Source of the DNA: Antedon bifida
Taxonomy: Eukaryota > Echinodermata > Crinoidea > Comatulida > Antedonidae
Length of the DNA stretch: 64,000 nt
Assembly: GCA_963402885.1 (NCBI GenBank)
Contig: OY727095.1
Location: forward strand, 10,793,001 to 10,857,000
Direction: 5' to 3'
Shown here in pieces: positions 20,501-52,005 of this stretch (its first letter is position 1; the number at the start of each line of letters is the position of its first letter). The position numbers and the translations under genes were made by a program. The notes under the pieces are model-generated. The model saw only the letters and a list, made by a program, of their open reading frames with translations. It had not been told where the DNA came from and did no database searches.

Positions 20501-23500
20501 ACTTAAAAAAACAATTACAAAGTGTCACATCACTCTCGTACAGTATACTGACAAGCATTCAGTGCTAAAAGATGTTACGAAAACCTATTTTTATGAGAGA
20601 TGATGGACTGGTAAACGTCTACCGCTACACAACACCTCAAATACATTATGCATTATATTATACATTATGCTTCCATTTCAACTCATAGACATTCATTATT
20701 TTGATAATATCTGGAATAATATAATAAATTGATCGATTATCATTACTTGCAGGTCCATGTCTTCGATTAACCAGTGACTATATATTAAAGACACTTGGCA
20801 GTGCTGCTCTTGATAGGTAAAATCTTTTTGATAAACGCTTAATTACAACAAAGAAAGAGTATACAGTTGACACTAAGTGCCTTTGAGTTTATTGAGCTTT
20901 AACCGATATTTCATCATTTTTCCAATGAAAAAAATGCCTCTCAATTTTGATACTGTAATTGAATTCATTGTCAACAACTTTTTGGATGACTGTTTACAAG
21001 AGATGCTAAAAGCATTAATTACAGTAGAACGCCAATTAAGGGACACTTTGGAACCCAAAAAATTATCCCCTTTTGGATGACCACAGAGTAGGGGTATTGT
21101 TCAATCATATATTTCCCCTTGTGTCATTCGTTTTACAGAAAAGTGTCCCTTTATTAGGGTGTCACAAAGTAGGGTTTCTACTCCAGAGTTTCTTCCATAT
21201 GAAAGGTGTCCTTTGAGATGTACACATTGAGGTTAAATTAATTTTTTTCAAAGACTCTACCCATCTGATTTCTGTATTATTAAGCCTTAAATAATTGTGT
21301 TAATATTTAATTAAGACTTTATTTCACAACATTTGCAGTATACATGAGTTCCGGTTAACAAGTTGGTTAGGTTTACAGGAAGACTTTCATCGTATTGTCC
21401 TCTATCAGGCTGATTATAAGATGACTCCATGGACACAAAGGTGCATTCGTCAGGTAAGAGAATATATAAATTCTTCCTTAGACCTATATATTTTATTATA
21501 ATAGAATTAAAATAATATTATTGTGTCTGTAGAATACAAATAAGCCTATGTGGTTTGATTATAGCTGTATGTCATTATAGACAAGGGAAAGGAAATAGCA
21601 ACAAATATAAATGAACGATTTGCATTTATTTAATTGTTTATATAATAATAATTTATTTGCTAATTTTTATATTGTCCAATTATTTATTAGTCATCTCATT
21701 GTTTTGTTTGTTAAGTTTTAATACGAATGTTTTAGAATTGTGTATTTAGTATATGGTATTTTTTTGTTATGATTTAAATTTTCTTTATTTGAAATATATA
21801 AAATATAATATTAATATGCTGATGTTCTAATGTTCCATTGTTTTTTTTTCTTTATTATATTTTAAAAATGTGAAATATGTACTATTGGTAATGTGTTATA
21901 TTCTTTCTGTCTTTTTTAAAAATTGTTTAGGCTGATTGCATTTTAATAGTGGCATTAGCAGATAAAGATCCAAATGATATCAGTGAGATGGAAGAACAAT
22001 TAGAAAACCTTGCAGTTCGTGCTCAAAAAGAACTGATGTTGCTCCACCGAGAAAAAGATTCAAGATACAAGCCACCAACCAGAACGGCTGAATGGCTTAA
22101 TGCTCGCGGCTGGTGCGTTACTCATCATCACATCCGATGTCCAAGGCGGATGTTCTCAAAAAAGTCCCCAGCAAAGCAGCGAGAAACTTATGACAAGCTT
22201 TTTCAAAAACCACCAGATCGTCATTCAGATTTCTCAAGAGTGGCACGGTTTCTAACTGGTACCTCAATAGGATTGGTGCTTGGTGGGGGTGGGGCTAAGT
22301 AAGTATGTTTTATTATTTGGCAAATAGAGAGCAAGACCATTTAGGGTTTGACCCCAAATTTTTCGTAACAAGATGAGAGGTCCAGAACTATCGTTGAAAC
22401 ATCATACTAAAATTCTTAAAAAATCCTCCTTGTGCTCTCCGAGAAATCCAAGATGAAGTTGGAGCTCTGAATCTTTCCTGAAAAAATTAGCATGTAACAA
22501 AAAATGTGCCTATGCTTATGAACTAATGCTCTTGGACTGAAAGTACAGTAGAACCACTCTTTTAGGACACCCCTATTCAAGGAGCACCCCTATTAAGGGG
22601 ACACTGTGAAATGGACAAGGAGAAATATATGTTTTAACACTATGGCCAATCCCTACTCAGGGAACACTTTTTTGGGGTTCAGAATCTGTCACAACAGGGG
22701 TTCTACTTGATTTTTATGTTTTATTACACGATTTTCAAGGTATTCTTTTAGCGCATGATTTAGTTATAATATTTTGCAATGTTATAAAACAAAGTCGCTT
22801 CGTTGTTACAGAGGTGCCTCGCAAATTGGCATCATTCGAGGTCTGCAAGAATATGGAATCCCAATTGACATGGTAGGAGGAGTCAGTATCGGTGCTTTTA
22901 ATGGTGCATTGTACTGCGAGGACCTCAGCTGGCAAAAGATGGAGGTCAGAGCAAAGAACTGGTCAAAGGTCATGACCTCATTCTGGAAGCAATTGGCTGA
23001 TCTTACATATCCATTCACAGCCATGTTTTCAGGTATGTTTTATCTGTGCTCCAGACATGAAAAACTGGATTGAAAGATTATTAAAATTATGACATTTTAA
23101 AATGCAGAAGAGACAGGTTTTAAACTGCTTCATCAAAATGAGCATTTGATGATCATTCTTCTCCCGAGATTTCTCAGGGTTCAGGATTACGTGTATGGAA
23201 ATGTGTAGTAAACTAGGAGATCAAACCTGGTTTCAAGTTGTTACAAGTTTTAACAATCTATGCAGATGTGAAAAGGCTGGTTAGTTTAATTTTGGCGTCC
23301 TTGGCCTACGATGAAATTCATCTTTGTATTGTATTTTTTGTATTGTATTTACTGGCTGAATTGAGTGAATGAATGGAAAATGAATCTGTTACTCAAAATA
23401 TATAATTATCAATGTGGTTTTTTTCTCTATTAGGACGGGGATTTAATAGAACTATCAAAGATGTGTTTGCAGAAAAACAAATAGAAGACTTGTGGATTCC

Positions 23501-26500
23501 ATACTTTACGATCACAACAGATATCAGTGTCTCACAAATGAGAATACATACATCAGGTGGGTTGTCAGTCATTTTTTATTCATTCTCTTTTTTTATAGAA
23601 AAACTTCACCATTAAACTTACACTTTACAGTAAAATGTTTACTTCAGGACCCAATGAATTGTCCTCTGAATTGGGATATCCCCTGAACAGTGATTGTTGA
23701 AACATATATTTCACTTGTTTTTTTCATGTTAAATTGCATCCTTAATTAGGTTACCTGCTGAATAGAGGTGTCTTAAGGGGGAGTGAGGTTCTACTCAAGC
23801 ACCTCTAGAGATCTGGAACCAACTTCCTTGTTCCATCCATTACATTTGATCCCAACTTTTCAATTCAAATCTCTCCTATCTCACCTATTTCAAAAGTTTT
23901 TTTTTTCATGTTGTACTTTATAAATTTTCGCTATTACTATTATTATTAATACTTTTAAGGTTGAATTATGCTGTATTGGGACTTACTAAATACTTCTAGA
24001 AACAATATTTGATCAATCTTCATTGCAGTTTAATGTATGTTGTCACCATGGTAACTAAATGGTCATGTGAAATCTTTTCAACAAATTAATGAAAATTTGT
24101 AGCTAACTAATTGGTTTTATCTATGAAATGCACAATAACATTATTAACTTTATGAGTCTGTATGTAGAAAATGTGCTACAAAAACTAAAAATAGAACTAT
24201 ATTTTATAAAGCCATCGACAGATTTACTTGCTTAAAATTTCGTTCATGATAATTCAGATTGCAATAAGGGAGAATCAGTAGCTTTGTTGTTTGGCTGGTG
24301 GCATGTGACATTAAACACAATTACAATGTGACAAAGTCAAGTGATTACAGTATACAACCCTTGCATTGGGACACATAAAATGAGCTATTGTAAATATGTA
24401 TTAAACTCTATTTATGGGACACCCTATTGAGGGACAGATCACATTTTAACGGTGTTCCTCAATATAGTTAATATTAATGGGATTCTGAGTGTAGGCCTAT
24501 ACAGGAACTACTATTACCATGCATAACTAGACATAAATACAGTATAATCCTTATTAAATGGACCACAACAATTATGTGTCCCCTTATAAAAGGGACCACA
24601 AAAAGTGTAGCCGTGGTAGGCCTTAGTATTAAAACATATTGCTCATTTCATGTGTCCCCTTAATAAGGGTGTCCATGAAAAATTATTTTTTATTTATTTT
24701 TTGTTTTAATATGCCATTTTAATGACACATAATATAGTTTGAACAAAATAATAATAATAAAAAATAATCAAATTTGAATAAGCAAAAAAATTGTCAAATT
24801 GGCTGCCAGCCAATGGGTTTTTGGTTGAATTTGACCATTTATTTTGTCATTTATGATAAAACATTTTTTTTTACAGAAGGGATTAACTTTATTAAAACTA
24901 CAAAATAACCTATTAAAAGTCTGATTTAATTAATCTTCATTTTTCATGTTTTTTTTGGTGGGGGGACAATACATCTTTAAGTCCTTTTCAATTCAATTTG
25001 TTAAATCACAACAACTCAAAGGTTATAACTTATTGTGGAATTAGTGTAGTATAATCATCCATGATTTATTGTATATTAGTATAGCATATGCATCACATGT
25101 GACGCCAGTATTAACTAAACATCATAATAAAAGCGCCACATGTGATAAGTATCATGGTACTTACCGAATTTGCCTATTATACTGGACATATACAGTAAGG
25201 CTATAATGTGAAGATACATGATTTTCAAGGAAACAATGATAAAAGATACAGACAGACTTATTGATTATTATAAATTTCAAGTAATAAATAAATTGGATCG
25301 GTTCTCACGTAAGGAGCTTTAATATGAATCCAGACCTATTAGTAAGACATATTATTAAATATTTAACCTTAATGTAATAAAATCGATATTTAGATACAAT
25401 GATCCAGTAATAAATATTATTTGTTAAAAGGTTTTTTTTAGAAATTCATAATAAAAATCAAGGTTGCCCTTTCAGCGAAGCTATTTATTTAGATGTTTTG
25501 GAGGTTTTTAAAGATAGTGAGGCTAAGTATCAACTTGATTAAAGTTAAAACTTAGCAGTGAGACATTATTCTATTCTCAGACATATTTTAACGTAATGTC
25601 AAATAAAGTCGATTTTTTCATTGGATGCAATTTAGATACAATAAACATGATTTTTTAATAGAAATTTCTATTAAAACCTTTTCAAACAAGGCCAACAGCC
25701 ATTAAGTCGCGTGCTACAATGCATAGTGATACCGGACCGACAGACAGACCGACAGACAGACCGACAGACCGACAGACAGACCGACCGACATAGTGAACTA
25801 TAGAGTCGCGTCTACGCGACTAAAAAGTCTTATTTACACACTGCACAGAAAAATAGAATCGAGAATCGGTTGTATTTATTTATTTGTTGACCATATACAC
25901 CTTTGTATCAGTGGCACTCACAATATGCGGTGCGGTCCAGCAAACAAAGCAGAACATTATAGAAAAATAAAAAGACATGAATAACTAAACTAAACTAAGC
26001 AAACAAAAACAAAATTAACCAGAAACTACAGTATTTACAAGCAACAATACAATAAATTAATCATTGGGAGTACTTTAAAGAGGATCGTTTCTTCCATGCA
26101 GAACTTAAATATTTTTTACAAAATTTATCAAATGAGTTATATGATTTAATTAGAAAAAGGAACAGACTCTCCTCCTAATATAAAACTTAATTTGTTTTCA
26201 TCATTTGCATTTACAAATAATGTCCATAAATCAGAAAAAGTACTACAGTACATCTTGGCTAAATCGAGATATAAGGTAAAATATAAAGCAAAATACTTTA
26301 TTCATAATTTGTCTTAAATCTATAGTTGTTAATTTATTTCTACACTAAGTGGGAAAAAATCCTATTTTAGTTTGATTTTATTATTATTTTTTGTTGTACA
26401 GTATATATGGAATATTTATTCTGAAATAAAGTGATTAAATCAAATCAAATTTCCTCAATGGGTTGTTTATTGTTTTCAAATAGCGTACATGTTATGTTAC

Positions 26501-29500
26501 ATAATTGTTATAACTGTACGGTACCTGTACAGTTTATCATTACATTTGAATATTGACATGTACTATTAAACACAGTGTCATTTCAAATGCTGTTCGATAA
26601 TCCGCAGTAATGTAGGCTCAGATCAAACTGGGGTTAAAGTCATCCTTCGTACGGACCATTAATGTCAGAGTCGAGTCAAATGGTTTGTCAAACTTTCAAA
26701 TCGGCAAGTAGCTCATAGTGTGACTCATTTTACAATCTTTAAATACATAATTATTTTCTAAAAAAATACATTCTAAAACGATGTAAATTCAGAAATTGTC
26801 AAACAGTATAATACAATACCGTACAACATACACAAAACCAGTACACGTATTTTATTGTAAAATACATTTTTATGTTGTGTTCTTAGTATTTAAGATTAGT
26901 GACTCAGTCATACCATTAACACACAACTAGAATTATATTAGAATTTTGCACAATAAAGAACAAGATAAATTTCATATCAGTTATTTATTTTACGAACACA
27001 AAACATGGATAAAACGAAACTATATATGAAAGCTTTAGCAAAAAAAAGTGATGATATAATAAAAAGTATGATTTTAAGTGAATTTGAAGATAAAAGTAGG
27101 CTTCGGCCTATTTAAAGAACAAGCGGAATCTTTACTAAATACAGGTAATAAAGTCCAAAGTAAAGGTGAACTGGAACCGTATGTTGCATTTACATTTGGT
27201 TTAGAAACGAAATTTGTACTCCATTTTTGAACAAGATTTATTTAAGTTTGTATTTAGCTATGCTTCTCTCTGGATGAGTTAAATAAATGCACCCTTTTGA
27301 ACAACCAAATCCACAACTTTCGACTGATATTAGGCCTATCACGCAGTAAATTGAAGTGCTTCTATTTCAGTGTATTCATTTTACTTGTACACAAGTTGGA
27401 TGTAAGATTAAATAACATAAAACTGAATACCAATAAAACGAGCCCCAAAGAGGTTCAATCGGGTAACTACGGCTTACTTGTATTTCAAGTACCACTGATG
27501 ACGTCCTCATATTTTGAACTAAAACATTACAATATTGTCACTATTCGTACGCCATTCCCTTCGTATGTTGATAATGAAAAGGGAAAAGAAAATTTAGAAC
27601 ACATCGCCCCTCATACCTATATGCGAAATATCTGAAACTTGATTTCTGCAAAAAAAAAGTCGTCTTAACTTTTGCATAAAAAATGTTAAATTTTCTTAAT
27701 TTACAAATACAATACAATAATTGTATAAGCAAAAATGTTTGCTTAATTTGTCTAAAATCTAAATTGTTAGTTAGGTGATTTCCTCAGTAGAATATTAGGT
27801 CTATATTCAATCAGGTAAATGCGGCTAACTTGTATTCCAAGTACCTGATAACATCATGATATACTTGTAACTAAACATTATAATATCGTCTATTGAATGA
27901 AATAGTATTATGTGTATCAAATAAAATTATTTTTTATTTATTTTTTGTTTTAATATGCCATTTTAATGACACATAATATAGTTTGAACAAAATAATAATA
28001 ATAAAAAATAATCAAATTTGAATAAGCAAAAAAATTGTCAAATTGGCTGCCAGCCAATGGGTTTTTGGTTGAATTTGACCATTTATTTTGTCATTTATGA
28101 TAAAACATTTTTTTTTACAGAAGGGATTAACTTTATTAAAACTACAAAATAACCTATTAAAAGTCTGATTTAATTAATCTTCATTTTTCATGTTTTTTTT
28201 GGTGGGGGGACAATACATCTTTAAGTCCTTTTCTGATAATCCACTTTGTTGACAGTTTTCAGGGTTTTTTTTAACTTTTAAGTTCAAATTATACATTAAT
28301 ACTGATAGTACATACTAGATACTTACAGAAACAATATTTGTTTAATCTTTATTGTTTGTATTTGAATTTATTGTGTCACCATAGCAACTAACACGTCAAT
28401 TTAATCCAAAATTAAGAATTTTGCTTGAGTGTGACGACATTTTTCGGAAGCGTAATACTTTATTTAGAAAACACTGTTTAGTAATGATGTTTGTTAAACA
28501 ATTACAATTTTGTTAATTTGCCAATGTCAAGCTTCCATTGTTGCTTTGCTTATGTTGGCATTATTACACATTTTATAAAGCAGATCTGTTAAATTGTTTT
28601 CATTCTATTTTTATTGTATTATTCTAACATTTGTTTGAATGTTATGAAACAGAGGACATCAATCATCAAGAAAAAAAAAAATATATATTCGAGTCTCGGT
28701 TGGGGCGACTTTTTCTCATTCTCACAGATTTCCTCATCTTTATCGTTTCAAATTAATTAATTAAATTTCAGTATATCACCGGGCGGTTTAGAATTAATGT
28801 TCTTTGCCTCTTGTGTTTATATATATATATATATATATAAATCCAAAGGCAAATTACTGAAAAAAATGACAATGCTGTGGGTATCAGTGGCTGGATCTCA
28901 ATGGAGATACAAATAAAAAAGCGAAAAGCTAAATCAAAACGATTAAGTAAACAGCCAGAAAAGTTAGCAGAGCTTTCGGGCAACACTAGCCCTTCATCAG
29001 TGCAAGTGAGGGAATTTGGATAAAGTCATAGCATATGAGTTGGCAAGTGCTGCCTGGGTGGACAGGAATAAAAGAAATATAACAATAGAAACAGCGTGTT
29101 GAATAGTGGGTGGAGACTGATATATATATATATATATGTAATAATAATATGTACACTTGCACTAATGAAGGGCTAGTGTTGCCCGAAAGCTCTGCTAACT
29201 TTTCTGGCTCTTTTACTTTATCGTTTTGATTTAGCTTTTTCGATTTTTTTTTGTATCTCCATTGAGAACAGAATTGTCATTTTTTTAGTAATTTGCCTTT
29301 CGATTTATATATGTAATAAACAACATAATCTGATCATACCATGATTAAAGAATAAACATAATACATTATCTTACGAATGTTACCTTTACCTCACAGAAAG
29401 TTAAAATCAAGACATATTATTGTAAATTATTCCAAATCCCTTTTTTCAAAGTGTTCGAACTTAAGTCAATTTTGTTATCTTCTTTATCACAATGCACTAA

Positions 29501-32500
29501 CATGCATTACAACATTCACACCCTATCACCTGTTCTGTTTCAGGCTCGCTTTGGCGTTATGTCCGAGCCAGCATGTCGGTGGCAGTGTACCTGCCGCCAC
29601 TGTGTGACCCCCGTGACGGCCACCTTTTGGTCGACGGTGCATATTGTAATAATCTGCCAGGTGAGGACTAATTTGCATAAGATACCAAGTGTTTTATTTA
29701 TGCTAATCAACCGTTATGTTTGCAGGCTCCCTCTGGAGGTATGTCCGGGCCAGTATGTCGCTATCTGGCTACTTGCCACCGTTATGTGACCCAAAAGACG
29801 GTCATCTGCTTTTGGACGGAGGTTATGTGAATAATCTACCAGGTGAGGTCAATTGATCGCTTCCTGTCACCAGGTCGTACATCTTCGCCTCAATTTCATT
29901 GGTGCAATTGTATAAGCATGTTTTGCAGCACTAATTTTAGTCTCTTTGTTATAATATAAATGTGGGTATTGTATTGTTGATTTCTCCTCTCTATTGTAGC
30001 CAAGCTTACATTCTTTGCTATTCCTGCATATCCTCAATCCTATCTCTCTATTTACTTTTTATGTTTGCTTTTAAATTCACTACTCTACCTTTTTGCACTG
30101 TTGTGTGTGGACAATCATAATGTATTTCTAATCCATCATGTCACCTAAACTGGTTTCTATCTTAGAGATCAGACTGTCATACAAAAGTTCAAATTTGGAA
30201 TTTAGTTTCTACCCCATCCCATAGTTTGTGTTCCAATAGAAACTTCATGACAGTAACAAAAACATTTGTCTACAATTCAAATTTATATTCTGTTTAAGTA
30301 AATTGACTAAATAAAAAATATGTCTAAAAAATTTTCCCCAAGCTGGATTTTTGTCGATTTTGGATATGTTATTCTCCATAAAATTCCAATGATGTAAAAA
30401 TTTACTTTGTACCATTTTTTTCCCGGTTCAACCTTTCAACTACCAGACTATTCTTGTTAAGCATGCTTTTATTCCATTAAAATACTGCTACATGATTTGA
30501 AATGAATAATTAATTTGTTTCATTTACAATCTGCATGATGACCATCAGATGATCATTTCCATATGTAGAAATACTATAGTTTACGACTTTTCAATGTTCA
30601 TTATAGCATATTTCCATGAGACTACAAAAGCTAAACATATATATAAAGTCAATGGTTAATAAAAACCATGCTGTAGCAATTCACAGGCAATTATGCTGTT
30701 TTATTTACATTCTAGGTGCTATTCAATTGCCTACTTGGTTAATATTCCAATTGGACAATTTATTTGTACATGTTACACTAATTTCCCTGCATACACAGTA
30801 TTTAAATACAGTCATGCTCTTGTGGGGAAAATGTGCTTATATTTGATAATAATTGTATTTAAAGGGTTTTTATTTATTTCTTTTATTTAGTTTATTTATC
30901 TATTTTTTATTTGGACGCTATTGGCTCTGTTAAATGTTTTTTACATCGACTAAAATAATAAGAATAACAATTTATTTTATTTGTTTTATTTAGTTTATCT
31001 ATTTTTTAAAATTTTTTTTTTATTTATTACTACAGTAATTTTTTTGCTTTGACACTATTGGCTCTGTTAAATGTTTTTTACATCGACTAAAATAATAAGA
31101 ATAACAATTTTTTTAATTTGTTTTATTTAGTTTATTTATCTTCTTTTTTTTTAAATTTATTGTATTTATTACCACGGTAATTTTTTTGCTTGGACACTAT
31201 TGGCTCTGGTAAATGTTTTTTTACATTGACTAAAATATTTAAACATTTAAAAAAACTAGTTAATACTGCAGTATCTGTCTTTGCATTTATTAAAACTTTC
31301 TTTTTTTTTGTCTCAGCTGACATTATGAAGGCGATGGGTGCACAGACTGTGATTGCCGTAGATGTCGGCAGTGTAGATGAGACCAATCTCACCAATTACG
31401 GAGATGAACTATCTGGTTGGTGGCTCCTCTGGAAACGTTGGAATCCTTGGTCAGAGGCAATTAAAGTAAGACACTCTAAAATACCACCAAGGTTTTGGTT
31501 AATAATATCATTTTGAGCAGGGTTTTCGTGAACATATTGTGGTAACATTTGCTGTAGATTTGACTTCCATTGGCTCACATAAACCACCCACATATCCATG
31601 TACATGGAGGATGCATATTTTAAGCTAATATAAAATAACAAAATAATGAATATTGACAATAATAAAAAGCAATGAACAAAAAAACTTATAAATATAATTT
31701 AGTGCCCTGAGTTGAAGCTACCAATAAATGCTTTTTATTTATTTCATTTTCTCGTTTTAGGTCCCTGACATGAGTGACATCCAAAGCAGACTAGCTTATG
31801 TATCATGTATGAAACAGAAAGAAGAACTTATGAAGAATGATATGTGTGAATATATAAGACCTCCAATAGATAGGTAAAAATATAATGTACTAGTTAAATA
31901 GATGTACACCTCATTGTGCTCATTTCTAACATACTTTTATGTACGGTTGTGTGGCACAATGTCTTAAGCTCTGTCTACACTCTCAAATTTTATATGACAA
32001 AAAAATGTGATGATGTCATATCACTACCATATTTGGGTATATCACTACCATATTTGGGCACATCACAACTAGTTTTATAGTGTAGGGTCAAACACCCAAC
32101 CTTGTATAGTACTTTTTTGCTTCCGAAATCATTATATACTCCATTTGTGTTTCACTGATCTATAAAATTATTTTCTTGTCAGTGCTTATTATAGCTACAA
32201 CCATTATCATTATTTTTTTTGTGTTGTGCAAACAGTCACAGTCCTATCAAAATACAAATTCAATAATGAAAATAAGAAAGATTTTCTTTTCTATTATTAT
32301 AGCGTTATAGTTTATTATTTTTTGTATGTAAAGTCATTTTTAATATCGGACATAGAGATTTAAGTGTCCCTCAGTGATGCAAAAACCAGGCATTGAAATC
32401 ACTATAGTTTGTCTCATGACCAGGGTACAATTAAGAAGGCAGTTTCATATGAATCAAACAAGTGAAAATGTTTTATTTAACACTACAGCCCACTTCTATT

Positions 32501-35500
32501 GTTGTTTTTTTTCTCTTTTGTGGCGTAAAGACCACTTTTATTCACATTCATATTATCTTTCATGTCATTACATACAATCATAACATCCTTCATCAGTAAC
32601 ATTTTTGAATTCCGTATTACAGTACCTCCTTTTTTCATTAATTTTCTTATATTTTTCTATAATACACTTACAAAAGAAGTTTAAAAAGTTAAAACAAATA
32701 CGTTTGGTCTAAATAACCTTTTTGTTTCGAAACCTCGTTATAACATATTTACTTTCATTATACATGATCATTATTATCCATCTCATTTTAAAATATTTTA
32801 CACAGAAAGAACAATTTCCCCTTTATGAGTTTTTCATTTATTTTTTTTCATTTTAGAACCCTAATTATACAATTTATTTATATTACAACTATTGTTGTTA
32901 TTGATTTTCCACAAGTAATACATATCTTTATAAATTATTAAGTATTTTATAAATGTGGATGGTGGTCAAAATAATTCTAGAAGTAGACTTTAAGCAGAGA
33001 CCACCATTAACAAAATAGACAAAAAACATTACAATGAAATTACTGTAAAATAATTCAATAAATAGAAAAAAAAATAACAATAAAGTGGTTTACATATACC
33101 TTTATCTGTGGCTAAACATGTCATAATTCAGATGGGGGGAAATGGGTTCCAATAGAAGCAAAAGGAAGTAGAGAGAAAAAATAAATCAGAACAGAATGCT
33201 TACCTGACATAAACCGAGACCAGATGCTTTTTAATATTAAATTTAAAGGATGAAAAAGTTGGTTGAGATTTTAAAAATGTGTCTAAACTAAGCAAACTTA
33301 TATTCAGGAAAACTTTGTTGGGTCCCTTAATAGAGGTCCTACTGTTTTGCAATTTTTTGTTTTTTTTTTGCTTCAAATATTTTTATTTTGTTTCAGATTC
33401 AAGACCCTTCACTTCAATCGTTTTGAGGAGATCAAAGATGTAGGGTATCAGCATGCACAGACTGTGTTGTCTGGCTGGGGTAAGAGTGGACTCTTAGCTG
33501 AACTTACTGGCGAAGATTCTGTAGAGAAACGAGAAGTGGTTTCCAATAAGGTGTCCTGTTATTTTGATTTGATTTATTTATTTTTTACCGCATTTATTTT
33601 TTATGCATTTAGGTTAGGTAGTGTATATAAATGTTTTTTTATTTGATCTCTGTTTTGCAATTGTTGTTAAAAAGTGAAAATATTATTTTTTTTAATTTAA
33701 AAATTATTAAGCTAAAAACCTACAAAAAAGATTTTAAAAATGATCAAATTTCTTGATATTACTTCTTTCAATTGCTAAATTAATACATTTGTTTAATTGT
33801 TAAGGGCATGGTTTGATTATTTCTCATGTCTGGCCTGTGCATCTTTTGGACAAGTAGGGTTTACCCCAGAGTACTGTTCCATCTCGGCCCTGGTTGTGGA
33901 CAAATGAATGAGTACCGAAAGTATGGAGTCACATGTGTGACTACTCAAAATTAAGTTCTGCAGAGAAGATTATAATGATACTGATAGAATCATCATCATC
34001 ATCATAATAATAGTTATTTCAAAATAATGGTGGCGTCACCAAGAAAGCAAATGCTTGTGTCAGGGACACAGACAAAAGGAAACAAAACCATTATACTGGA
34101 TTTGTTATTTATCATTTGTATTCAAATTAAAACTAACCTATTTTGTTTTTTTTAATTAGATGCAGACAAAGCAGAAACAAATACCTACTCAATTCACAGA
34201 TCTTGCTGCCATGATTTCACGTCTTGAACCAGTACCAGCCAGACGAGTAATCTTTGAAGTCCCAACACCAGAACCAGGTGAGACTTCTTAAAGATATATT
34301 GTCCCCCTAAAAATTCTTTTTTTTTAAATTTTTTGTTGAATATGCCAATTTAATTTCACATAATAGTTATTCAAATGTTTCTTACGGGAGGTACCAAATG
34401 CACTAATTAGATAGGAAGAACAAACAGGCTTTTGAAAGTGCGGCCGTTAAGGGAGGTGGCCGCTTATGGGAGGTGGTCGCTCACGGAGATTCAACTGTAA
34501 ATAAAATATGGGGTTTTCATGAATAAAAATAATCACAGAAGAAAGTCCTTACGAATATGACTTTGTGAAATGGTAATTTGAAAATGCAAATAAGGCATGC
34601 CTGTTAATAATCTACAAATTAAAATTTTTATAAGATAGTATGAAAAATCTACAGAATATCTCAATTTTAGTTACCATAGTAACTGTTTTTATGCATAACT
34701 AAGGGAAATTAAATAATTATCCTATAATAATCAATTAATAATTACTACTGAATCCAACAATCACAGTAAAAACAATTAAAACCAATATTTAATATAAAAT
34801 GTGATATTTTACATGCTGACTTTAAATGAAATGGTATCAAAAACTTTTAAATTTAAAAATGGTAAAAATGCATTTCACATCAGGGCTTTAATATTTGTTA
34901 TGTAGAATTACATGAGTATACCATTGACTTTTGGTTTTGGGGAGGTAAGTGGTGATGGATGGGCATGTGGGATCTGCTTAGGTTGGCAAATAGAAGAAGT
35001 AAAAAAAAAAGAGGAGCTTCAAAATAAGAGAGGAGTAATCTGTTCACAACGATCTGATAATTTATTCAAATTTCAAGAGGATATAACCTAGAAAATGACA
35101 TTAAAAATATTGTTTTTTTTTCTCACAACACAACTCGCATTATATAAAACTTTAAGAATTGTTTTGAGTAATGGGTTTATAATCAGATAATCAAAGAAAA
35201 TAAAATGTTTTTACTAATATACCATGTTTTTTTTTTTATAAAAATGCCTATGTTTCTGGCAACACTGCTTGTAGATTTTTAAATTAAACCAGTATTTTAT
35301 TTTAGAAATCACTTATTAAACATTAGAACTACCTATTTGTAATAAATCAGCTTAAAAAATACACCACTTTGGGCATTATGGTGAAGTAAAGTTCATTATT
35401 ATTATTATTTTTGTAGGTTTGTATTACAACTGCAAAACGGCTTACACAAATTCTGATTTTATTAATCGTAATTTTTCATGTTTTTGAGGGACAATATATT

Positions 35501-37273
35501 TATTAATTTGTCCTTATAGTAAAAACCCTCCTTTGGGACACATGTATTCAGTAGACACTCCTATTAAGGGACAGTTTCACATGAAACACATAAGTTAACA
35601 AATTTGCTCCTGCATACCAGGGGCGAATTGCAATAAAGGTCTTAACCGCCGTCTTAGACTCAAGTCCAAGATGAAACCCTTAGCAACGATGGTCTTAGAT
35701 TTAAGACCATTGCAATAAGAAGTCTTAGCCTTAGAATTTCAGCGCCGTGGTCTTAGATTCTAAGCGAACGCTCCTAGGCTAGCTAGTAATATCATGGCGA
35801 AATTAACTTCTTTAAATACTGCTGTGAATTGATTTTATGATACTAGTGTAGAAAAGGGGTATTGAACTATAAGACATAAAATCTATATAGGCCCACACCT
35901 ACCTGACGATCAATTACTATTAGCGGTCCACAACTGCACCAACAAGCTGTACGCATATTCTCCATACGCGGCCTAGCGCTACACTATTTTGACCAAGAAA
36001 AGACTACATATAGTAGCATATTTAAAAGTTTTTTTTTTAAATATTTGCTATCAAATTACATACAATTTTGTTGCCAATATTTTTAATTATTTGCTAAAAT
36101 CTCCTAGTATTTACATAATCTTAACGCTATTGAATAGGCAGTGTGTCCATTCATGCATTAAAATGGCCTCAATATGTCCTACTGAGGAGGTTGTCGCTAC
36201 TCCTTATTGTTAGATTACTCTATTTGCACTTGTTGGTATAGCGCCCTCATTTGTCGGTAACTATAGGCTGGTTTGATTGTTTGAAATTCTTTACTAATAA
36301 AGTCTCAGTTAAGACCACTATATTGCAATCGACTTTGCTGAGAGGCTTAACTAAGACTTTCGCGAGGGGCTTAGGGCTTAGATCTAAGACAAAGTCTTTA
36401 TATTGCAATCCGCCCCTGATGTTCGCTCAAATCGGTGACACTTCATTTTCAAACGAAAATCGAAAGTTAAGCAAATCTGAACACTTTGCTGTTACAACAC
36501 TAATTTTAATATGACATTTCTTGCGATACGAAGCATAACTTCATTGATCTGAACAACCCTAATTGATGATTGCATTATTTGACCTTACAATATTCACTGA
36601 GTATGTTAACATAAGAATTCTCAATTGTATACACCGAGAGTTACAATTCTGTTTTAATTTGTATTTGAGAGATTTACAACTTGTGATGCGCTTAAACCTT
36701 CACAATATATCGACCAATTATGTTCTTGTATTTCTAATTTTTATAGGCATAATGGTTTACAATTATTTTATTTTACAATATCACAAAAAGGCATGACTCT
36801 GGAACAAAAAGTCAGTTGATTAAATGCTACAAACAATCAAATATCATTTACATTTTGAATTGGCATCAGATGATGTTATGGCCTTAATCAGCAAAACAAA
36901 TGCCAAAGATAGTCCTTGAAAAACTAATCTAAAATAATTTTTTAAATAAGTGAATTGCTCATCAACTAAAGAGATTACATTATTTATTATATAATGCCAT
37001 AAAGATTTTATCAATTAGAAATTAACAAATGAATTACAAAAAAAAAAAAAAAAATGGAAATCAAATCAAAATTTAATTTTACCAATGGTTTACTTCACAG
37101 AGGCTGAAATGGAGGGACAAGATTTTCCAGTAACAGTTTCAATGCCTACCGTAGATGAAGTCAGTTACGATGATGAAAGTGATGTGGATGTAGAGGACTC
37201 GGAATCCGACACAAATACGCGCAACTTTGCGCCACGCAACAAACTAAACTCCACGCCAACTTCCAGCGATTGA
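5471..37273 (+). CDS. PNPLA6: Neuropathy target esterase / Swiss cheese orthologue (patatin-like phospholipase 6/7), 29-exon gene
   Basis: Spliced model, all GT/AG with matching phases: 5471-5566, 7202-7283, 7474-7559, 8639-8739, 9435-9587, 10535-10694, 11168-11248, 11880-12089, 12611-12785, 13498-13560, 13990-14126, 15688-15855, 16220-16297, 16733-16938, 17295-17426, 17993-18166, 18796-18941, 19581-19718, 20753-20816, 21339-21453, 21931-22298, 22812-23032, 23434-23556, 24a 29544-29660 or 24b 29726-29842, 31317-31465, 31761-31873, 33397-33550, 34160-34277, 37101-37273. With one copy of exon 24 the sum is 4101 bases, 1366 residues plus stop, close to vertebrate NTE. Order: N-terminal membrane helix (about 33-50), basic motif [13 protein letters not shown] (72-84), three cNMP-binding-like domains (about 175-320, 505-640, 640-745), patatin domain with oxyanion motif GGGGAKG, Ser in GVSIG (about 1003) and Asp in DGG (about 1123). 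The family deacylates lysophosphatidylcholine and phosphatidylcholine at the ER face. An acidic, Ser-rich tail replaces the vertebrate tail. PNPLA6 versus PNPLA7 cannot be distinguished; most invertebrates have one orthologue. Confidence 0.95.
6807..7074. mobile_element. Foldback MITE with about 45-bp TIRs, intron 1
   Basis: Left AATTGTATGACCCACTATA...CCGGGAGAGGTGC and right inverse GCACCTCTCCGGGAGTCGTA...TGGGTCATACAATT. About 268 bases, no coding capacity. Confidence 0.85.
7202..7283 (+). CDS. PNPLA6: PNPLA6 exon 2: transmembrane anchor
   Basis: Acceptor TTGCAG then a hydrophobic stretch ([15 protein letters not shown]), the single ER membrane helix expected in NTE, followed by a polar and basic segment. 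Donor G|GTAATA at 7284, ending in phase 1. Confidence 0.85.
7474..7559 (+). CDS. PNPLA6: PNPLA6 exon 3: conserved basic motif after the membrane helix
   Basis: Encodes an Ala-rich start then [17 protein letters not shown], nearly the same as vertebrate NTE just after its membrane segment. Acceptor TTTTTAG at 7473, donor AAG|GTAAAT at 7560. Intron 2 is only 190 bases. Confidence 0.95.
8557..8581. repeat. Poly-T run in intron 3
   Basis: About 25 T, ending 57 bases before exon 4; it could act as an extended pyrimidine tract. Confidence 0.9.
8639..8739 (+). CDS. PNPLA6: PNPLA6 exon 4
   Basis: Follows CCTGCAG; encodes [13 protein letters not shown]..., then a basic stretch ending LARGLKR, which aligns with the NTE linker between membrane helix and first cNMP domain. 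Donor AG|GTAAGC. A long poly-T run lies 57 bases upstream. Confidence 0.9.
9081..9302. mobile_element. MITE family A copy with internal tandem repeat, intron 4
   Basis: TIRs TTAAGCTCTGTCTACACTAT and its inverse (TTGATATTGTAAACAGAGCTTT). The interior carries five units of GATATGCCCAAATATGGTAGT-like repeats. It creates a spurious frame rich in MPKYGSD; that is not a gene. Confidence 0.85.
9435..9587 (+). CDS. PNPLA6: PNPLA6 exon 5: lead-in to first cNMP domain
   Basis: Encodes SILKLHETG... with the family-conserved [11 protein letters not shown] and [10 protein letters not shown]-like segment (here [13 protein letters not shown]). Acceptor TTCTTTAG, donor AG|GTATGT. Phase 2 in and out. Confidence 0.95.
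10535..10694 (+). CDS. PNPLA6: PNPLA6 exon 6: first cNMP-binding-like domain, N-terminal part
   Basis: Encodes [14 protein letters not shown]... and [20 protein letters not shown], the beta-strand core of a cyclic-nucleotide-binding fold (residues about 174-226). Acceptor TTTAAAG, donor CCA|GTATGT. Confidence 0.95.
10871..11012. mobile_element. Short MITE with perfect 16-bp TIRs, intron 6
   Basis: AGGTTTATCGCAAATA at 10871-10886 and its exact inverse TATTTGCGATAAACCT at 10997-11012. Followed by a run of 16 C. Confidence 0.85.
11029..11044. repeat. Poly-C run
   Basis: Sixteen consecutive C, just after the MITE in intron 6. Confidence 0.9.
11168..11248 (+). CDS. PNPLA6: PNPLA6 exon 7: first cNMP domain, middle
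   Basis: Twenty-seven codons, [18 protein letters not shown] then LLSILDVLT, matching the '[16 protein letters not shown]' region of vertebrate NTE. Phase 0 on both sides. Confidence 0.95.
11672..11835. mobile_element. MITE family A copy, intron 7
   Basis: Left TCTGTCTACACTATCAAACT, right AGTTTGATAGTGTAGATAGA. Ends 44 bases before exon 8. Confidence 0.85.
11880..12089 (+). CDS. PNPLA6: PNPLA6 exon 8: first cNMP domain, C-terminal part
   Basis: Seventy codons, phase 0 both sides: [16 protein letters not shown], then [20 protein letters not shown] and LHNYLGL, all highly conserved in the family. Acceptor GACTAG sits only 44 bases after a MITE copy (11672-11835). Confidence 0.95.
12611..12785 (+). 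CDS. PNPLA6: PNPLA6 exon 9: Ser-rich linker
   Basis: Encodes a Ser/Lys-rich linker between the first two cNMP domains ([21 protein letters not shown]-type). This region is poorly conserved across animals, so support is splice phase and open frame. Donor GGAG|GTAAAC. Confidence 0.8.
13498..13560 (+). CDS. PNPLA6: PNPLA6 exon 10: short linker exon
   Basis: 63 bases, phase 1 both sides, so it could be skipped without a frameshift. Encodes [21 protein letters not shown]. Acceptor TTTTTTTAACAG, donor CCC|GTAAGT. Candidate cassette exon in a variable linker. Confidence 0.7.
13990..14126 (+). CDS. PNPLA6: PNPLA6 exon 11: linker
   Basis: Encodes [18 protein letters not shown]... and ...[10 protein letters not shown]. 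Acceptor TTTTACAG, donor AAG|GTATGA. Phase 1 in, 0 out; consistent with the neighbours. Confidence 0.8.
15180..15342. repeat. Dispersed 'TACAGTAGAACCC' repeat, intron 11
   Basis: Representative of a degenerate family built on ACAGTAGAACCCCT, AAGGGGACACCCC and CCCTGAATAGGGGTG words. Other copies in the window: 7305-7370, 8980-9080, 16513-16580, 21018-21230, 22548-22711, 23630-23797, 24351-24482, 24536-24675, 35518-35600 and 39157-39348. All intronic or 3' flanking, no coding potential. Confidence 0.65.
15350..15493. mobile_element. MITE family A copy (left end eroded), intron 11
   Basis: Right end AGTTTGATAGTGTAGACAGA intact; left end reduced to AAAGCTCAAACTTTATGTGAC. Abuts a second copy. Confidence 0.8.
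15494..15656. mobile_element. MITE family A copy, tandem to the previous one
   Basis: Left AAGCTTTGTCTACACTATCA, right AGTTTGATAGTGAAGATAGA. Ends 31 bases before exon 12. The two copies are head to tail. Confidence 0.8.
15688..15855 (+). CDS. PNPLA6: PNPLA6 exon 12: lead-in to second cNMP domain
   Basis: 56 codons, phase 0: [16 protein letters not shown]... then [15 protein letters not shown], aligning with the 'AKQELAKLMRIED' helix of human NTE. The donor GAT|GTAAGT begins a minisatellite of similar GTAAGTCAGAA units (15856-16128). Confidence 0.9.
15856..16128 (+). repeat. Minisatellite of GTAAGTCAGAAATTTG units beginning at the exon 12 donor
   Basis: The exon 12 donor GTAAGTCACAACATTG is followed by about ten degenerate 16-22-base units. 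About eight contain a perfect GTAAGT (15856, 15896, 15916, 15932, 16039, 16061, 16081, 16100). It looks like amplification of a segment that includes the 5' splice site. Confidence 0.85.
16220..16297 (+). CDS. PNPLA6: PNPLA6 exon 13: second cNMP domain, start
   Basis: 26 codons, phase 0: [19 protein letters not shown] then LTHEGDQ, matching the 'HHAKAGTIIARQGDQ' strand. Acceptor ATTTTCAG, donor CAG|GTAATG. Confidence 0.95.
16733..16938 (+). CDS. PNPLA6: PNPLA6 exon 14: second cNMP domain, core
   Basis: Encodes [14 protein letters not shown]..., then the phosphate-binding-cassette-like [16 protein letters not shown] and VISKTSFYR. The canonical PBC Arg is replaced by the family's GEP context, as in vertebrate NTE, whose cNMP binding has not been shown convincingly. 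Confidence 0.95.
17105..17222 (-). mobile_element. tRNA-derived SINE relic, intron 14
   Basis: Read on the minus strand: GTAGCTTGCTGGTTAATGTG resembles an A box and GGGTTCAATCC a B box of a pol III promoter at suitable spacing. No clean cloverleaf, so a SINE rather than a tRNA gene. Confidence 0.55.
17295..17426 (+). CDS. PNPLA6: PNPLA6 exon 15: end of second cNMP domain, start of third
   Basis: Encodes [19 protein letters not shown], then [14 protein letters not shown] and EAGKALYR, a strongly conserved NTE segment. Acceptor TATTACAG, donor AG|GTCAGT. Confidence 0.95.
17452..17755. repeat. Tandem duplication of about 150 bases, intron 15
   Basis: Two units (17452-17602 and 17605-17755) share TATGTCAAAAATAGAA, TTTTGACATTTTGAACAAAT and ATGTCATCTTTACATTGAAC. 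They differ at scattered sites. Confidence 0.85.
17993..18166 (+). CDS. PNPLA6: PNPLA6 exon 16: third cNMP domain
   Basis: Encodes [19 protein letters not shown], then [16 protein letters not shown] and VEALT-like [18 protein letters not shown]. Acceptor TTGTGCAG, donor AG|GTAACG. Phase 2 both sides. Confidence 0.95.
18202..18531. mobile_element. MITE family B copy, intron 16
   Basis: Complete copy with both ends: TTTAAAGATGTATTGTC on the left and GGGACAATACATCTTT on the right. Internal CATCGGCTGGCAGCCAA core. No coding capacity. Confidence 0.8.
18582..18701. mobile_element. MITE family A copy, intron 16
   Basis: AAGCTCTATCTACACTATTA on the left, GATAGTGTAGAAAGAGCTTA on the right; shorter interior than other copies. 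Confidence 0.8.
18796..18941 (+). CDS. PNPLA6: PNPLA6 exon 17: end of third cNMP domain
   Basis: Encodes [18 protein letters not shown], then [16 protein letters not shown], conserved across NTE proteins. Acceptor TCTTTTTAG, donor AGAG|GTAAAC. Confidence 0.95.
19581..19718 (+). CDS. PNPLA6: PNPLA6 exon 18: start of the inter-domain region before patatin
   Basis: Encodes [17 protein letters not shown], then [20 protein letters not shown]. It corresponds to '[23 protein letters not shown]' in human NTE. Acceptor CCTTCAG, donor ATAG|GTAAGT. Confidence 0.9.
19736..19950 (+). mobile_element. tRNA-derived SINE relic, intron 18
   Basis: TGGTTATGATGCTTGGCTAC (A-box-like) and CTGGGTTTAAGTCC (B-box-like), then a (CAAT)n run and the word TTTATATAGCGCCATT ... 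GGCGCTGTAGAAAA, a tail common in invertebrate short repeats. No reliable cloverleaf. Confidence 0.6.
20753..20816 (+). CDS. PNPLA6: PNPLA6 exon 19
   Basis: 64-base exon: [21 protein letters not shown], matching the '[21 protein letters not shown]' segment. Acceptor ACTTGCAG, donor AG|GTAAAA. Confidence 0.9.
21018..21230. repeat. Dispersed 'ACAGTAGAAC' repeat, intron 19
   Basis: Same family as 15180-15342: TTACAGTAGAACGCCAATTA, then GTGTCCCTTTATTAGGGTGTC. Confidence 0.6.
21339..21453 (+). CDS. PNPLA6: PNPLA6 exon 20
   Basis: Encodes [19 protein letters not shown], then [20 protein letters not shown]. Well conserved. Acceptor ATTTGCAG, donor CAG|GTAAGA. Confidence 0.95.
21931..22298 (+). CDS. 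PNPLA6: PNPLA6 exon 21: pre-patatin region and oxyanion-hole start
   Basis: Longest exon. Encodes [14 protein letters not shown]..., [46 protein letters not shown], and ends in LVLGGGGAK, the first part of the patatin glycine-rich oxyanion motif. The K codon is split across the intron. Confidence 0.97.
22548..22711. repeat. Dispersed 'ACAGTAGAACC' repeat, intron 21
   Basis: TACAGTAGAACCACTCTTTT, CACCCCTATTAAGGGGACAC and ACAGGGGTTCTACTTG; the two ends are roughly inverted copies. Confidence 0.65.
22812..23032 (+). CDS. PNPLA6: PNPLA6 exon 22: catalytic serine (GVSIG)
   Basis: Completes GGGGAKG and encodes the nucleophile elbow G-V-S-I-G (Ser about residue 1003; vertebrates have GTSIG), then [16 protein letters not shown] and [10 protein letters not shown]. 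This is the start of the patatin alpha/beta domain. Confidence 0.97.
23434..23556 (+). CDS. PNPLA6: PNPLA6 exon 23: patatin domain, middle
   Basis: Encodes [19 protein letters not shown], then [20 protein letters not shown]. Phase 1 both sides. It is followed by the largest intron (5987 bases to exon 24a), which carries the 2.9-kb repeat and several MITEs. Confidence 0.97.
24678..24989. repeat. MITE family B copy, left direct repeat flanking the 2.9-kb element
   Basis: About 310 bases, apparently identical to 27923-28233. Contains TTGGCTGCCAGCCAA (palindrome) and ends GGGGGGACAATACATCTTTAA. It belongs to the family with ends AAAGATGTATTGTCCCC; the left terminus is missing. Confidence 0.85.
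24990..27922 (+). mobile_element. Dispersed element, copy 2, inserted in PNPLA6 intron 23
   Basis: Starts AATTCAATTTGTTAAATC, exactly where copy 1 ends. 24990-27442 matches copy 1 in inverted orientation; 27443-27922 has no counterpart inside the window. It is flanked by two identical direct repeats of about 310 bases (24678-24989 and 27923-28233). The right end near CAAATAAAATT weakly mirrors the left end (AATTYWATTTG), a possible short TIR. No transposase frame seen. Two similar sub-blocks at 27459 and 27811 share the words ACTTGTATT and CAAGTACC. Confidence 0.8.
27923..28233. repeat. MITE family B copy, right direct repeat flanking the 2.9-kb element
   Basis: Same sequence as 24678-24989 including the trailing GTCCTTTTC, then continues TGATAATCC. 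The two copies bracket the element in direct orientation. Confidence 0.85.
28817..29310. mobile_element. Inverted pair of repeat arms with hammerhead-like core, intron 23
   Basis: The arm at about 28840-29009 reads, on the minus strand, almost like the arm at 29152-29310 on the plus strand: CACTTGCACT[G/A]ATGAAGGGC, TGTTGCCCGAAAGCTCTGC, then TTAGCTTTTTCG and AGTAATTTGCCTTT. Both arms end in AT microsatellites (about 28820-28840, 29119-29137). Hammerhead-like motifs in short repeats are known from Penelope-like elements and retrozymes; no reverse transcriptase is visible. Confidence 0.7.
28966..29002 (-). ncRNA. Hammerhead-ribozyme-like core (candidate)
   Basis: On the minus strand: CTGATGA, A, stem II GGGC/GCCC around loop TAGTGTT, then GAAA, a possible two-pair stem III (GC-TCT-GC) and TAA at the predicted cleavage position. 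Stem I pairing is not obvious in the flanks, so activity is doubtful. The plus-strand arm (29162-29188) has CTAATGA, a core mutation. Confidence 0.35.
29544..29660 (+). CDS. PNPLA6: PNPLA6 exon 24a: alternative catalytic-Asp exon (DGA version)
   Basis: 117 bases, phase 1 in and out, acceptor CTGTTCTGTTTCAG, donor CCAG|GTGAGG. Encodes the same 39-residue block as exon 24b with 7 differences. Relative to 24b: L13V, S14A, G15V, K24R, L30V, G33A and V35C (block numbering). The catalytic Asp is kept, as DGA rather than DGG. The frame is fully open and the splice sites are strong, so it does not look like a decayed copy. Vertebrate NTE resembles 24b, so 24a is probably the derived copy. Likely used instead of 24b in some transcripts. 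Confidence 0.88.
29726..29842 (+). CDS. PNPLA6: PNPLA6 exon 24b: catalytic-Asp exon, canonical version (DGG)
   Basis: 117 bases, phase 1 both sides. Encodes [19 protein letters not shown], then [18 protein letters not shown], almost the vertebrate sequence. Asp (about residue 1123) of DGG is the second member of the patatin Ser-Asp dyad. Acceptor TTATGTTTGCAG has a weaker pyrimidine tract than 24a; donor CCAG|GTGAGG. Confidence 0.95.
30870..31235. repeat. Triplicated block of about 120-130 bases, intron 24, just upstream of exon 25
   Basis: Three diverged tandem units, each with TTTATTTAGTTTAT, GACACTATTGGCTCTG and AAATGTTTTTTACAT[C/T]GACTAAAAT. The last unit ends about 80 bases before the exon 25 acceptor. 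Confidence 0.85.
31317..31465 (+). CDS. PNPLA6: PNPLA6 exon 25: end of patatin domain
   Basis: Encodes [19 protein letters not shown], then [20 protein letters not shown] and [10 protein letters not shown], strongly conserved. Acceptor TTTGTCTCAG, donor AAA|GTAAGA. Confidence 0.97.
31761..31873 (+). CDS. PNPLA6: PNPLA6 exon 26
   Basis: Encodes [19 protein letters not shown], then CEYIRPPID, matching human '[16 protein letters not shown]'. Acceptor CGTTTTAG, donor AG|GTAAAA. Confidence 0.97.
31964..32087. mobile_element. MITE family A copy, intron 26
   Basis: TTAAGCTCTGTCTACACTCT on the left, TAGTTTTATAGTGTAGGG on the right; interior CACTACCATATTTGGG repeated twice. Confidence 0.75.
33397..33550 (+). 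CDS. PNPLA6: PNPLA6 exon 27
   Basis: Encodes [21 protein letters not shown], then [13 protein letters not shown], equivalent to human '[20 protein letters not shown]'. Acceptor TTGTTTCAG, donor AAG|GTGTCC. Confidence 0.95.
34160..34277 (+). CDS. PNPLA6: PNPLA6 exon 28
   Basis: Encodes a Gln/Lys-rich start then [19 protein letters not shown], matching the conserved 'FTDLAEIVSRIEP' near the NTE C-terminus. Donor CCAG|GTGAGA. Confidence 0.93.
34288..35506. mobile_element. MITE family B copy split by later insertions, intron 28
   Basis: Left end TTAAAGATATATTGTCCCCC at about 34288 and right end TTTTTGAGGGACAATATA at about 35480-35500 of the same family. Between them lies unrelated sequence, including a GGGAGGTGGCCGCTTATGGG-type repeat (34380-34500), so the element was probably broken by a nested insertion. 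Confidence 0.6.
35618..36418. mobile_element. Foldback DNA element with CAGGGGCG termini, intron 28
   Basis: Left CAGGGGCGAATTGCAATAAA and right inverse TATTGCAATCCGCCCCTG, about 800 bases. Subterminal regions are full of GTCTTAGA/TCTAAGAC words in both orientations. No transposase frame. Termini resemble non-autonomous hAT-type elements, but I could not identify a clear 8-base target duplication. Confidence 0.75.
37101..37273 (+). CDS. PNPLA6: PNPLA6 exon 29: acidic C-terminus and stop
   Basis: Encodes [20 protein letters not shown], then [17 protein letters not shown] and ends TPTSSD with TGA at 37271-37273. The vertebrate tail is also acidic but not alignable in detail. Acceptor CTTCACAG at 37100 follows a poly-A run (37038-37053). 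Confidence 0.88.
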
Positions 37274-43264: not shown

Positions 43265-44134
43265 TTACTTTATCTTCAAAATTGATAGAAAATGTTTCCT
43301 ATAATCTTTATTACCAAAACCAAAGATGAACGGACTAACAGCCGAGGTACTGTATGCAAAAAAATGCGATATTATATACGCCATAACACTTTCAGAAGGA
43401 TCTGTAACAGCAACGACGAGAATGAAGGGAATTCTAACTACAAAGATATATGCAACCACAAATAACAACAAAAGAGCAGTCTTCGCTTCTCGTTTTAGTT
43501 TGAACCCAGTATTCTGCGCACCCAAGTGAGATGCTGCCTCGGATGCCTGTATCTGCTTAGCATGTCGTTTCACAAGTATGAATACCCGGATGTACAGGAA
43601 TATTATTGCTGGAAGGGGCATAACCCAATTTGCTAAAACCCATGCATAATAGCCGTTGATTAATACGGTTGCTAATCGGCAGTCGTTTTCAAGAGAGCCT
43701 GTGTTTCCAAATAGCGGCATCATAACCGGAAGAACACCAATCGTGACAGAGTATCCAGTAATTATGACAATGGCAATGTAGCATCTTCTCTCTGTTAAGA
43801 TGGTAAAGCATTTCAATGGTCTACTGATGGTGATGTACCTCTCAATTGATAGTGCTAATGTAAAGTATACATGAGCTACAGATAATATCGAGATGATACA
43901 CATGAAGGCTATGCATTCTGGATTATCGGATAGTTTTTTGAGGTCCACTAAACATTGTATGGGATATGCAGAAGCGATACCGAAATCAATAAAGGCTACA
44001 CATGTCACTAACGTATTCGAAACAGTCTGTAATGTACGAACTTTGAAGAATAATGCTATGATTGAGATATTTCCGACGAAAGCGAATAAACACAATAAGA
44101 CCGTAAACACCGTTGCAACAACTTCCATTGCCAT
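43265..44134 (-). CDS. Rhodopsin-like (class A) GPCR 1, single exon
   Basis: Intact 289-residue intronless frame. Seven hydrophobic segments. TM1 GN (GNISII), FID in place of LAxAD at TM2, Cys before TM3 (PEC), ERY at the end of TM3, ECL2 Cys (DCRLAT), Pro in TM5 (WVMPLP), basic ICL3 with KLKREAKTA, TM6 VVRIPF where the usual Trp (6.48) is Arg, TM7 AVSPFIF replacing NPxxY, then helix 8 GNKDYRKH. Start context AAGATGG; a second Met is at residue 3. No signal peptide and a very short N-terminus, as in small-ligand receptors. Orphan; reminiscent of the expanded intronless GPCR lineages known in echinoderms. The most diverged of the four here. Confidence 0.9.
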   Translation of the reverse strand: MAMEVVATVFTVLLCLFAFVGNISIIALFFKVRTLQTVSNTLVTCVAFIDFGIASAYPIQCLVDLKKLSDNPECIAFMCIISILSVAHVYFTLALSIERYITISRPLKCFTILTERRCYIAIVIITGYSVTIGVLPVMMPLFGNTGSLENDCRLATVLINGYYAWVLANWVMPLPAIIFLYIRVFILVKRHAKQIQASEAASHLGAQNTGFKLKREAKTALLLLFVVAYIFVVRIPFILVVAVTDPSESVMAYIISHFFAYSTSAVSPFIFGFGNKDYRKHFLSILKIK

Positions 44135-44580
44135 CTTGATTTAAAAATCTATATAAAATAAAAACATATAAAATAATACTATTATTCAAAATTGTACATA
44201 ATGAAGTTATATATACAATGTCCGACAGACACCCGATCAAAGATTTGAACTTGAAACCTCCGTCTTGAAGTCAAAACGAAATCATGTGTACGAAAACCGA
44301 GCTGGATCGAAGCTGAATTCTTCCCTGGGAAGTCCGATCTACTCAAGTCGGGAAAAATATTGTAAACAATCGGAAAGGAGTTATAAGCTACGAATTTTAT
44401 TTTAAACATCGATAAGTCAACTTATACCGTAACTATTAACTATTTCTACTACTATTTTGTTAATTCAGTCAGATTGTATAACAACCTGTTGAAATGCAAT
44501 ATGTACTTTAAATGACTAGAAGTTACAAGCACTCGACCATAATGAACATAGTTAACATAATTTTAATAAATTAATTCGCA

Positions 44581-51704: not shown

Positions 51705-52005
51705 GTCAGAGTAGGGCAAACATCTGACCAATTACTCAACTCCCTGACGCAAACCTACTCCACTGTAGTTTAAATAATTACAATCCTGTTGGTGCAGTAC
51801 CCGCTGCTTACTTGGGCTCGAATCTAACCACTAGCCATCAGCGCAAGCTCGGTGGTCTAGAGGTATGAACGCCAGGCTAGTGATCTGGAGGTCGTGGGTT
51901 CGAGTCCCACCCGAGAACTACTTCCATATTTTTTCGCAAGTATTCTAAAATGTACTTAGTATGAAGTATAAATTACGTCAGAGTAGGGAAAAACATCTGA
52001 CCAAT
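51705..52005. mobile_element. tRNA-like insertion bounded by direct repeats, unit 1 only
   Basis: GTCAGAGTAGGGCAAACATC... at 51705-51732 recurs as GTCAGAGTAGGGAAAAACAT... at 51977-52005. The corresponding place in unit 2 (about 55980) lacks the segment, reading ATCAATCAAATTACGTCAGA. Confidence 0.6.
51846..51917 (+). tRNA. tRNA-like sequence (Thr, AGT anticodon by fold), probably a SINE head
   Basis: A box TGGTCTAGAGG, B box GGTTCGAGTCC, T arm GTGGG/CCCAC, anticodon stem CCAGG/TCTGG with loop CTAGTGA (AGT). The acceptor stem pairs 5 of 7 and the D stem has one mismatch, so I doubt it is a working tRNA gene. It sits in an insertion present only in duplication unit 1, flanked by 28-29-base direct repeats. 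Confidence 0.45.

Follow-up and report, generated by a model that had tools for sequence, protein, structure and literature searches.

Does a crinoid make two forms of neuropathy target esterase (NTE) from one gene, by choosing between two copies of the exon that supplies half of the catalytic dyad? The question is raised by a stretch of DNA from Antedon bifida (contig OY727095.1; 64,000 nucleotides, hereafter the window), in which an original prediction described two 117-base exons, phase 1 at both ends, bounded by GT/AG splice sites, open in frame and identical at 32 of 39 residues. All of these properties were recomputed and are confirmed. The relevant features are given below in window positions. 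The label "24" is a name only; the gene model is provisional at its last joint and at its first two, and some of the other joints are best guesses.

7500..37273, plus strand: approximate span of the NTE gene (PNPLA6/7, Swiss cheese type), from N-terminal exon to stop codon (exon seeds and joints, Pfam Patatin)
22812..23032, plus strand: exon encoding GVSIG, the motif of the nucleophile Ser (exon seeds and joints)
23434..23556, plus strand: exon 23, which precedes the pair and ends in phase 1 (exon seeds and joints)
29544..29660, plus strand: exon 24a, the apparently derived copy, catalytic Asp kept (VDGA)
29661..29725, plus strand: 65-nt intron separating 24a from 24b
29726..29842, plus strand: exon 24b, the copy of ancestral-like appearance, catalytic Asp kept (LDGG)
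31317..31465, plus strand: exon 25, which follows the pair and is entered in phase 1 (exon seeds and joints)

The two exons thus have the arrangement of a mutually exclusive pair, being adjacent, homologous and equal in phase, and encoding the same segment of the protein. Each is 117 bp long, encodes 39 residues in an open frame entered and left in phase 1, and is flanked by AG on its 5' side and GTGAGG on its 3' side. A matrix built from introns of the gene itself scores both donors at 9.1 bits, a value above those of 16 of the 20 other donors. The acceptors of both exons are weak by the same measure, with 3.5 bits for 24a (3 of 20 others lower) and -0.3 bits for 24b (1 of 20 lower).

Identification of the gene as NTE is based on recognised sequence and on its fit to the published numbering of the human protein, which is described below. 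Exons located before position 20000 have, by eye, a cyclic-nucleotide-binding-like appearance. The downstream patatin domain contains both members of the dyad, with Ser in GVSIG, which we take to be the motif holding the nucleophile of NTE, and Asp in DGG (24b) or DGA (24a). When joined to its neighbours, either exon yields a match to Pfam Patatin (PF01734) that is above the cut-off and covers profile positions 1-189 of 191, with scores of 103.8 bits for 24b and 102.9 bits for 24a.

Vertebrates carry two genes of this kind, PNPLA6 and PNPLA7. In the crinoid assembly (315.6 Mb, 27 contigs), a whole-genome protein search with the NTE catalytic region returned at least seven matches with E values of 0.001 or better; all of those listed fall in one gene, and two of them are 24a and 24b. 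Pfam patatin matches in the genome also number at least seven, of which one is inside the NTE gene and the others are without NTE likeness at that sensitivity. A PNPLA7-like second gene was not found in this genome-wide protein search, the counts from which are lower bounds. Likewise, a six-frame scan of the window revealed no third copy of the exon block. When 19 NTE exons were searched against the window, only the 24a/24b pair matched at high identity; the other matches were weak, involving two cyclic-nucleotide-like exons, or short and chance-like in one case.

Elsewhere in the window, between 43268 and 59228 on the minus strand, there are four similar single-frame open reading frames in tandem (291-324 residues) that resemble rhodopsin-type G-protein-coupled receptors by eye. 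In addition, Rfam RF00005 matches at 51848-51915 (tRNA, 41.4 bits).

43268-44140, minus strand: receptor-like open reading frame (by eye)
49093-50001, minus strand: receptor-like open reading frame (by eye)
53360-54265, minus strand: receptor-like open reading frame (by eye)
58257-59228, minus strand: receptor-like open reading frame (by eye)

The mitochondrial genome of the assembly (15,844 bp) exhibits all the crinoid traits considered, namely AAA read as Asn, a T-rich and C-poor coding strand, and a displaced nad4L, so that the assembly can be assigned to a crinoid. Its COX1 gene has six in-frame TGA codons and carries AAA at two sites that are presumably Asn in other animals. T makes up 46.7% of the main coding strand and C 11.4%, and the gene order, judged by eye from open frames, is cox1-cox2-atp6-cox3-nad3-nad4-nad4L-nad5-cob, with nad1, nad2 and nad6 on the opposite strand. 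A unique rearrangement of nad4L is reportedly known within crinoids, and flatworms also read AAA as Asn. Among deuterostomes this codon change is specific to echinoderms (PMC2697986), and T-rich, C-poor mitochondrial genes mark crinoids; Florometra, for instance, has T at 45% and C at 12% (PMC7748595).

If only one of the two exons enters each mRNA, something must prevent 24a from being joined to 24b. Reading frame cannot do so, because both exon lengths are multiples of three, whereas exclusion by frameshift and decay calls for a length that is not. The 299-nt exon-intron-exon segment is only modestly stable as a fold (z = -1.32, with 19 of 200 shuffles equally stable), the long inverted repeats near the pair (28400-30200 searched) are AT-rich or derive from a repeated hairpin element, and RNA structure, although still conceivable as an exclusion device, was set aside. 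The hairpin element itself is an inverted repeat at 28817-29315, in the intron before 24a and approximately 230 bases upstream of that exon. One of its arms has at least 46 matches in the genome, where scoring covered 40 of 1880 first-look candidates. Identity is 98-99% for many of the matches, and the element is a recently active, MITE-like repeat.

The short intron offers a more promising device. Measured from the donor of 24a, four candidate branch points conforming to yTnAy lie at 11, 36, 40 and 46 nt. By motif prediction the best placed is the last of them, within TGCTAAT, which is 19 nt away from the acceptor. Against the steric reading, shorter introns do get spliced in some animals. 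Steric thresholds differ between animals, and so we sampled the gaps between consecutive exons in the crinoid's own genome. None of 64 gaps is shorter than 78 nt, in a sample that represents two gene families (48 gaps from 110 p450 matches and 16 from 84 myosin matches) and in which some larger gaps may span neighbouring genes; kinase matches, mostly long open frames, were left out. The smallest gap, 78 nt by match ends, proved on base-by-base reading to be an intron of 90 nt. Ten p450 gaps were read in this way; all but L069 hold a plausible intron, with lengths of 90-186 nt. One myosin gap is 83 nt by match ends. The remaining 22 modelled introns of the NTE gene are all at least 295 nt. All four candidate motifs are also within the distance of about 50 nt from the upstream donor below which steric interference has been proposed, a threshold derived from vertebrates (PMC7969005, PMC5740500).

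These distances bear on the strongest competing explanation, in which 24a is a cassette that is sometimes included together with 24b, or in which both are skipped, to give inactive or regulatory proteins that stay in frame. Exon lengths divisible by three would keep the frame in either event and the weak acceptors could permit skipping, but the interval between the exons is below every one of the sampled gaps, and the protein sequence has been kept in both copies. Moreover, a 14-residue insertion between Pro1142 and Ala1143 of human NTE abolishes activity (PMC13282554). Joint inclusion would add 39 residues at exactly the equivalent junction, which counts for exclusion, and we regard the cassette arrangement as unlikely. 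The earlier suggestion that the exons are probably mutually exclusive is thereby strengthened, in that they are tandem duplicates whose spacing (65 nt, with no branch-point candidate more than 46 nt beyond the donor) should block joint inclusion.

What would a choice between these exons alter in the enzyme? A model of the human NTE catalytic domain has a Ser1014-Asp1134 dyad and a hydrophobic pocket that includes Phe1066, Met1114 and Leu1116, the last of which touches three of six docked ligands (PMC10708158). The crinoid block can be placed on this numbering by equating block position n with human residue 1103+n. Six anchors fit, with Arg1111 (a residue mentioned in PMC13282554), Met1114, Leu1116, Asp1134 and Pro1142 exact in 24b, and Thr1115 replaced by Ser. 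Furthermore, the designation c.3428-44 places, by arithmetic, a human intron between the first and second bases of codon 1143, which corresponds in place and phase to the crinoid intron after 24b. By equal arithmetic c.3313 does not fit codon 1115 (PMC13282554), and we therefore relied on the protein numbering.

On this numbering Asp1134 is block position 31 and is present in both exons, which bears out the claim that the block carries the Asp of the Ser-Asp dyad. Met1114 is also present in both. At position 13, the equivalent of Leu1116, exon 24b encodes Leu, followed by Ser-Gly at the next two positions; 24a encodes Val, followed by Ala-Val. Shared by the two copies are Asp31-Gly32, Met11, Arg8 and the NNLP end. 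The proposal that one locus yields two enzymes with different active-site walls can now be made concrete, position 13 being the counterpart of a residue in the modelled human pocket.

Comparison with bacterial patatins gives some indication of which copy is the older in form. The bacterial set was assembled from a pattern scan (3 loci) and the best 30 loci of one phylum, in which 187 of the 198 genomes had a match, and 32 of the 33 loci cover the block. Because the loci were chosen with 24b as query, the set is biased towards 24b, and it is with this bias that 24b outscores 24a in 29 of the 32 sequences, equals it in three and is lower in none. From these higher scores, 24b looks like the ancestral-like copy and 24a like the derived one. 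Asp31 and Gly32 are present in all 32 bacterial proteins. Position 30 is Val, as in 24a, in 28 of 32, and position 33 is Gly in 15 and Ala in 2. At position 15 there is Gly in 27, Ile in 3, Val in 1 and Thr in 1. Position 14 is Pro throughout, with neither Ala nor Ser in any sequence, and Val at position 13, as in 24a, occurs in none. A bacterial relative (L019, 370-2286, Omnitrophota) encodes a 638-residue protein in which, by eye, a cyclic-nucleotide-binding domain is followed by a patatin domain, as in animal NTE. Structural mapping was attempted with an AlphaFold2 prediction of this protein aligned with L018, but the mean pLDDT was 45.5 and no residue was mapped.

None of the 32 bacterial patatins has Val13 or Ala14, so the 24a form may be less active. 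The exons might then be exclusive, with the 24a form catalytically poor and acting not as a second enzyme but as a scaffold or a competitor, and the altered wall does adjoin position 1115, where substitution of Thr by Pro (T1115P) abolishes activity of human NTE (PMC13282554). We judge this to be improbable, however, as 24a retains Asp31-Gly32, Met11, Arg8 and the NNLP end, its Pfam score nearly equals that of 24b, and its Val30 and Ala33 are found in relatives. The 24a form is probably active, with a changed wall.

The history of the pair is consistent with long use of both exons. The proteins differ only at block positions 13, 14, 15, 24, 30, 33 and 35. At the DNA level 82 of 117 bases are equal, and the 35 differences are distributed 9/4/22 over codon positions 1, 2 and 3, such that 16 codons are identical and another 16 are silently changed. 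The NG86 method gives a dN of 0.16 with dS saturated, and maximum likelihood gives a dN of 0.10 with a dS of 21, which likewise amounts to saturation; being pairwise, this divergence cannot assign changes to one copy or the other. Similarity extends just six bases beyond the exon on each side. When 35 random substitutions were placed on 24b in a neutral simulation, none of 100,000 copies kept 32 residues (the best kept 27), and 68% gained a stop codon. Saturated silent change combined with low dN indicates that both copies have long been kept as protein, and tandem exon duplication followed by long purifying selection on both is supported by these comparisons. That 24a is a dead or unused duplicate, intact in looks only, is very improbable in view of the simulation, the saturated silent change, the intact splice sites and a base composition (GC and GC3 both 0.58, the highest among 22 exons scored) that is high against a background of 28-37% GC per 2 kb of the window.

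We therefore consider it likely that 24a and 24b stem from an old tandem duplication and are used in a mutually exclusive manner, in the only NTE gene found in this crinoid, to give two active isoforms. In the mechanism that we envisage, the branch point of 24b would lie no more than 46 nt from the donor of 24a, too close for U1 and U2 snRNPs to act on both jointly. Consequently 24a would not be joined to 24b, each mRNA would carry one of the two, and regulators acting at the two weak acceptors would choose between them. The isoforms would differ at the wall of the acyl pocket, where Leu1116 would be exchanged for Val and the next two residues, Ser-Gly, for Ala-Val, and around the catalytic Asp, where LDGG would become VDGA. 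Both would be active lysophospholipases with a shifted preference for substrates or inhibitors. A fuller version of this proposal, in which the single NTE gene yields two lysophospholipases with different acyl pockets through a switch that is old, tissue-regulated and enforced purely by the 65-nt intron, is one that we advance more tentatively and hold to be possible.

Both the steric mechanism and the swapping of active-site exons are already known; as far as we have searched, what is new is the gene, the animal group and the exchange of a dyad residue. For example, exons 4a and 4b of vertebrate OGDH, like the NTE pair, are tandem duplicates in an enzyme gene separated by a short intron, and branch points less than about 50 nt from the donor (46 nt in sunfish) have been proposed to enforce their exclusion (PMC7969005). 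Unlike the NTE pair, the OGDH exons change calcium sensing and not a catalytic residue, are separated by 118-131 nt in birds and mammals rather than 65 nt, and have been proven at the RNA level (PMC7969005). Among human clusters, 57 of 629 have a donor-branch distance below 50 (PMC5740500), as the NTE pair does by its branch-point candidates. Human KHK resembles NTE in that the swapped exon is by the active site and a catalytic arginine is conserved in both isoforms, but it is a vertebrate sugar kinase of proven expression (PMC9741552). In oyster alternative oxidase, an invertebrate enzyme, exon 10 contributes to the active site and comes in two versions, although there the exon is terminal, carries its own stop and is selected by an alternative 3' site without internal exclusion (PMC5589949). 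Finally, muscle myosin heavy chain of sea urchins and the acorn worm exchanges catalytic-domain exons, with two exons in cluster 8, in a motor protein for which ESTs support both versions (PMC3912159).

Two similar exons, 102 and 90 bp long, also stand in tandem in a muscle-type myosin gene of the same crinoid genome (L056), at G000:C9:20613603-20613704 and 20613429-20613518 on the minus strand. By reading, they encode the switch-1 region and are separated by an 84-nt intron. This region is myosin cluster 3, described from scallops; sea urchins and the acorn worm are reported with cluster 8 only (PMC3912159).

A report of mutually exclusive exons in NTE, PNPLA6 or PNPLA7 was not found among the matches listed from the open-licence PubMed Central literature, and PNPLA does not occur as a string anywhere in the main texts of PMC9741552, PMC5740500 and PMC9013439. 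To this extent the literature agrees with the original prediction, which knew of no earlier description for PNPLA6/7 or Swiss cheese.

If our interpretation is correct, a single-copy animal NTE gene gives rise to two enzymes through a swapped segment that holds half of the dyad together with part of the pocket wall. Such a pair would offer a natural comparison for the role of the Leu1116 wall in substrate and inhibitor selectivity, beside the human disease residue Thr1115. It would also supply a case with a very short intron in which steric exclusion can be examined outside vertebrates. Exon swapping in the crinoid would then do what two genes may do in vertebrates.
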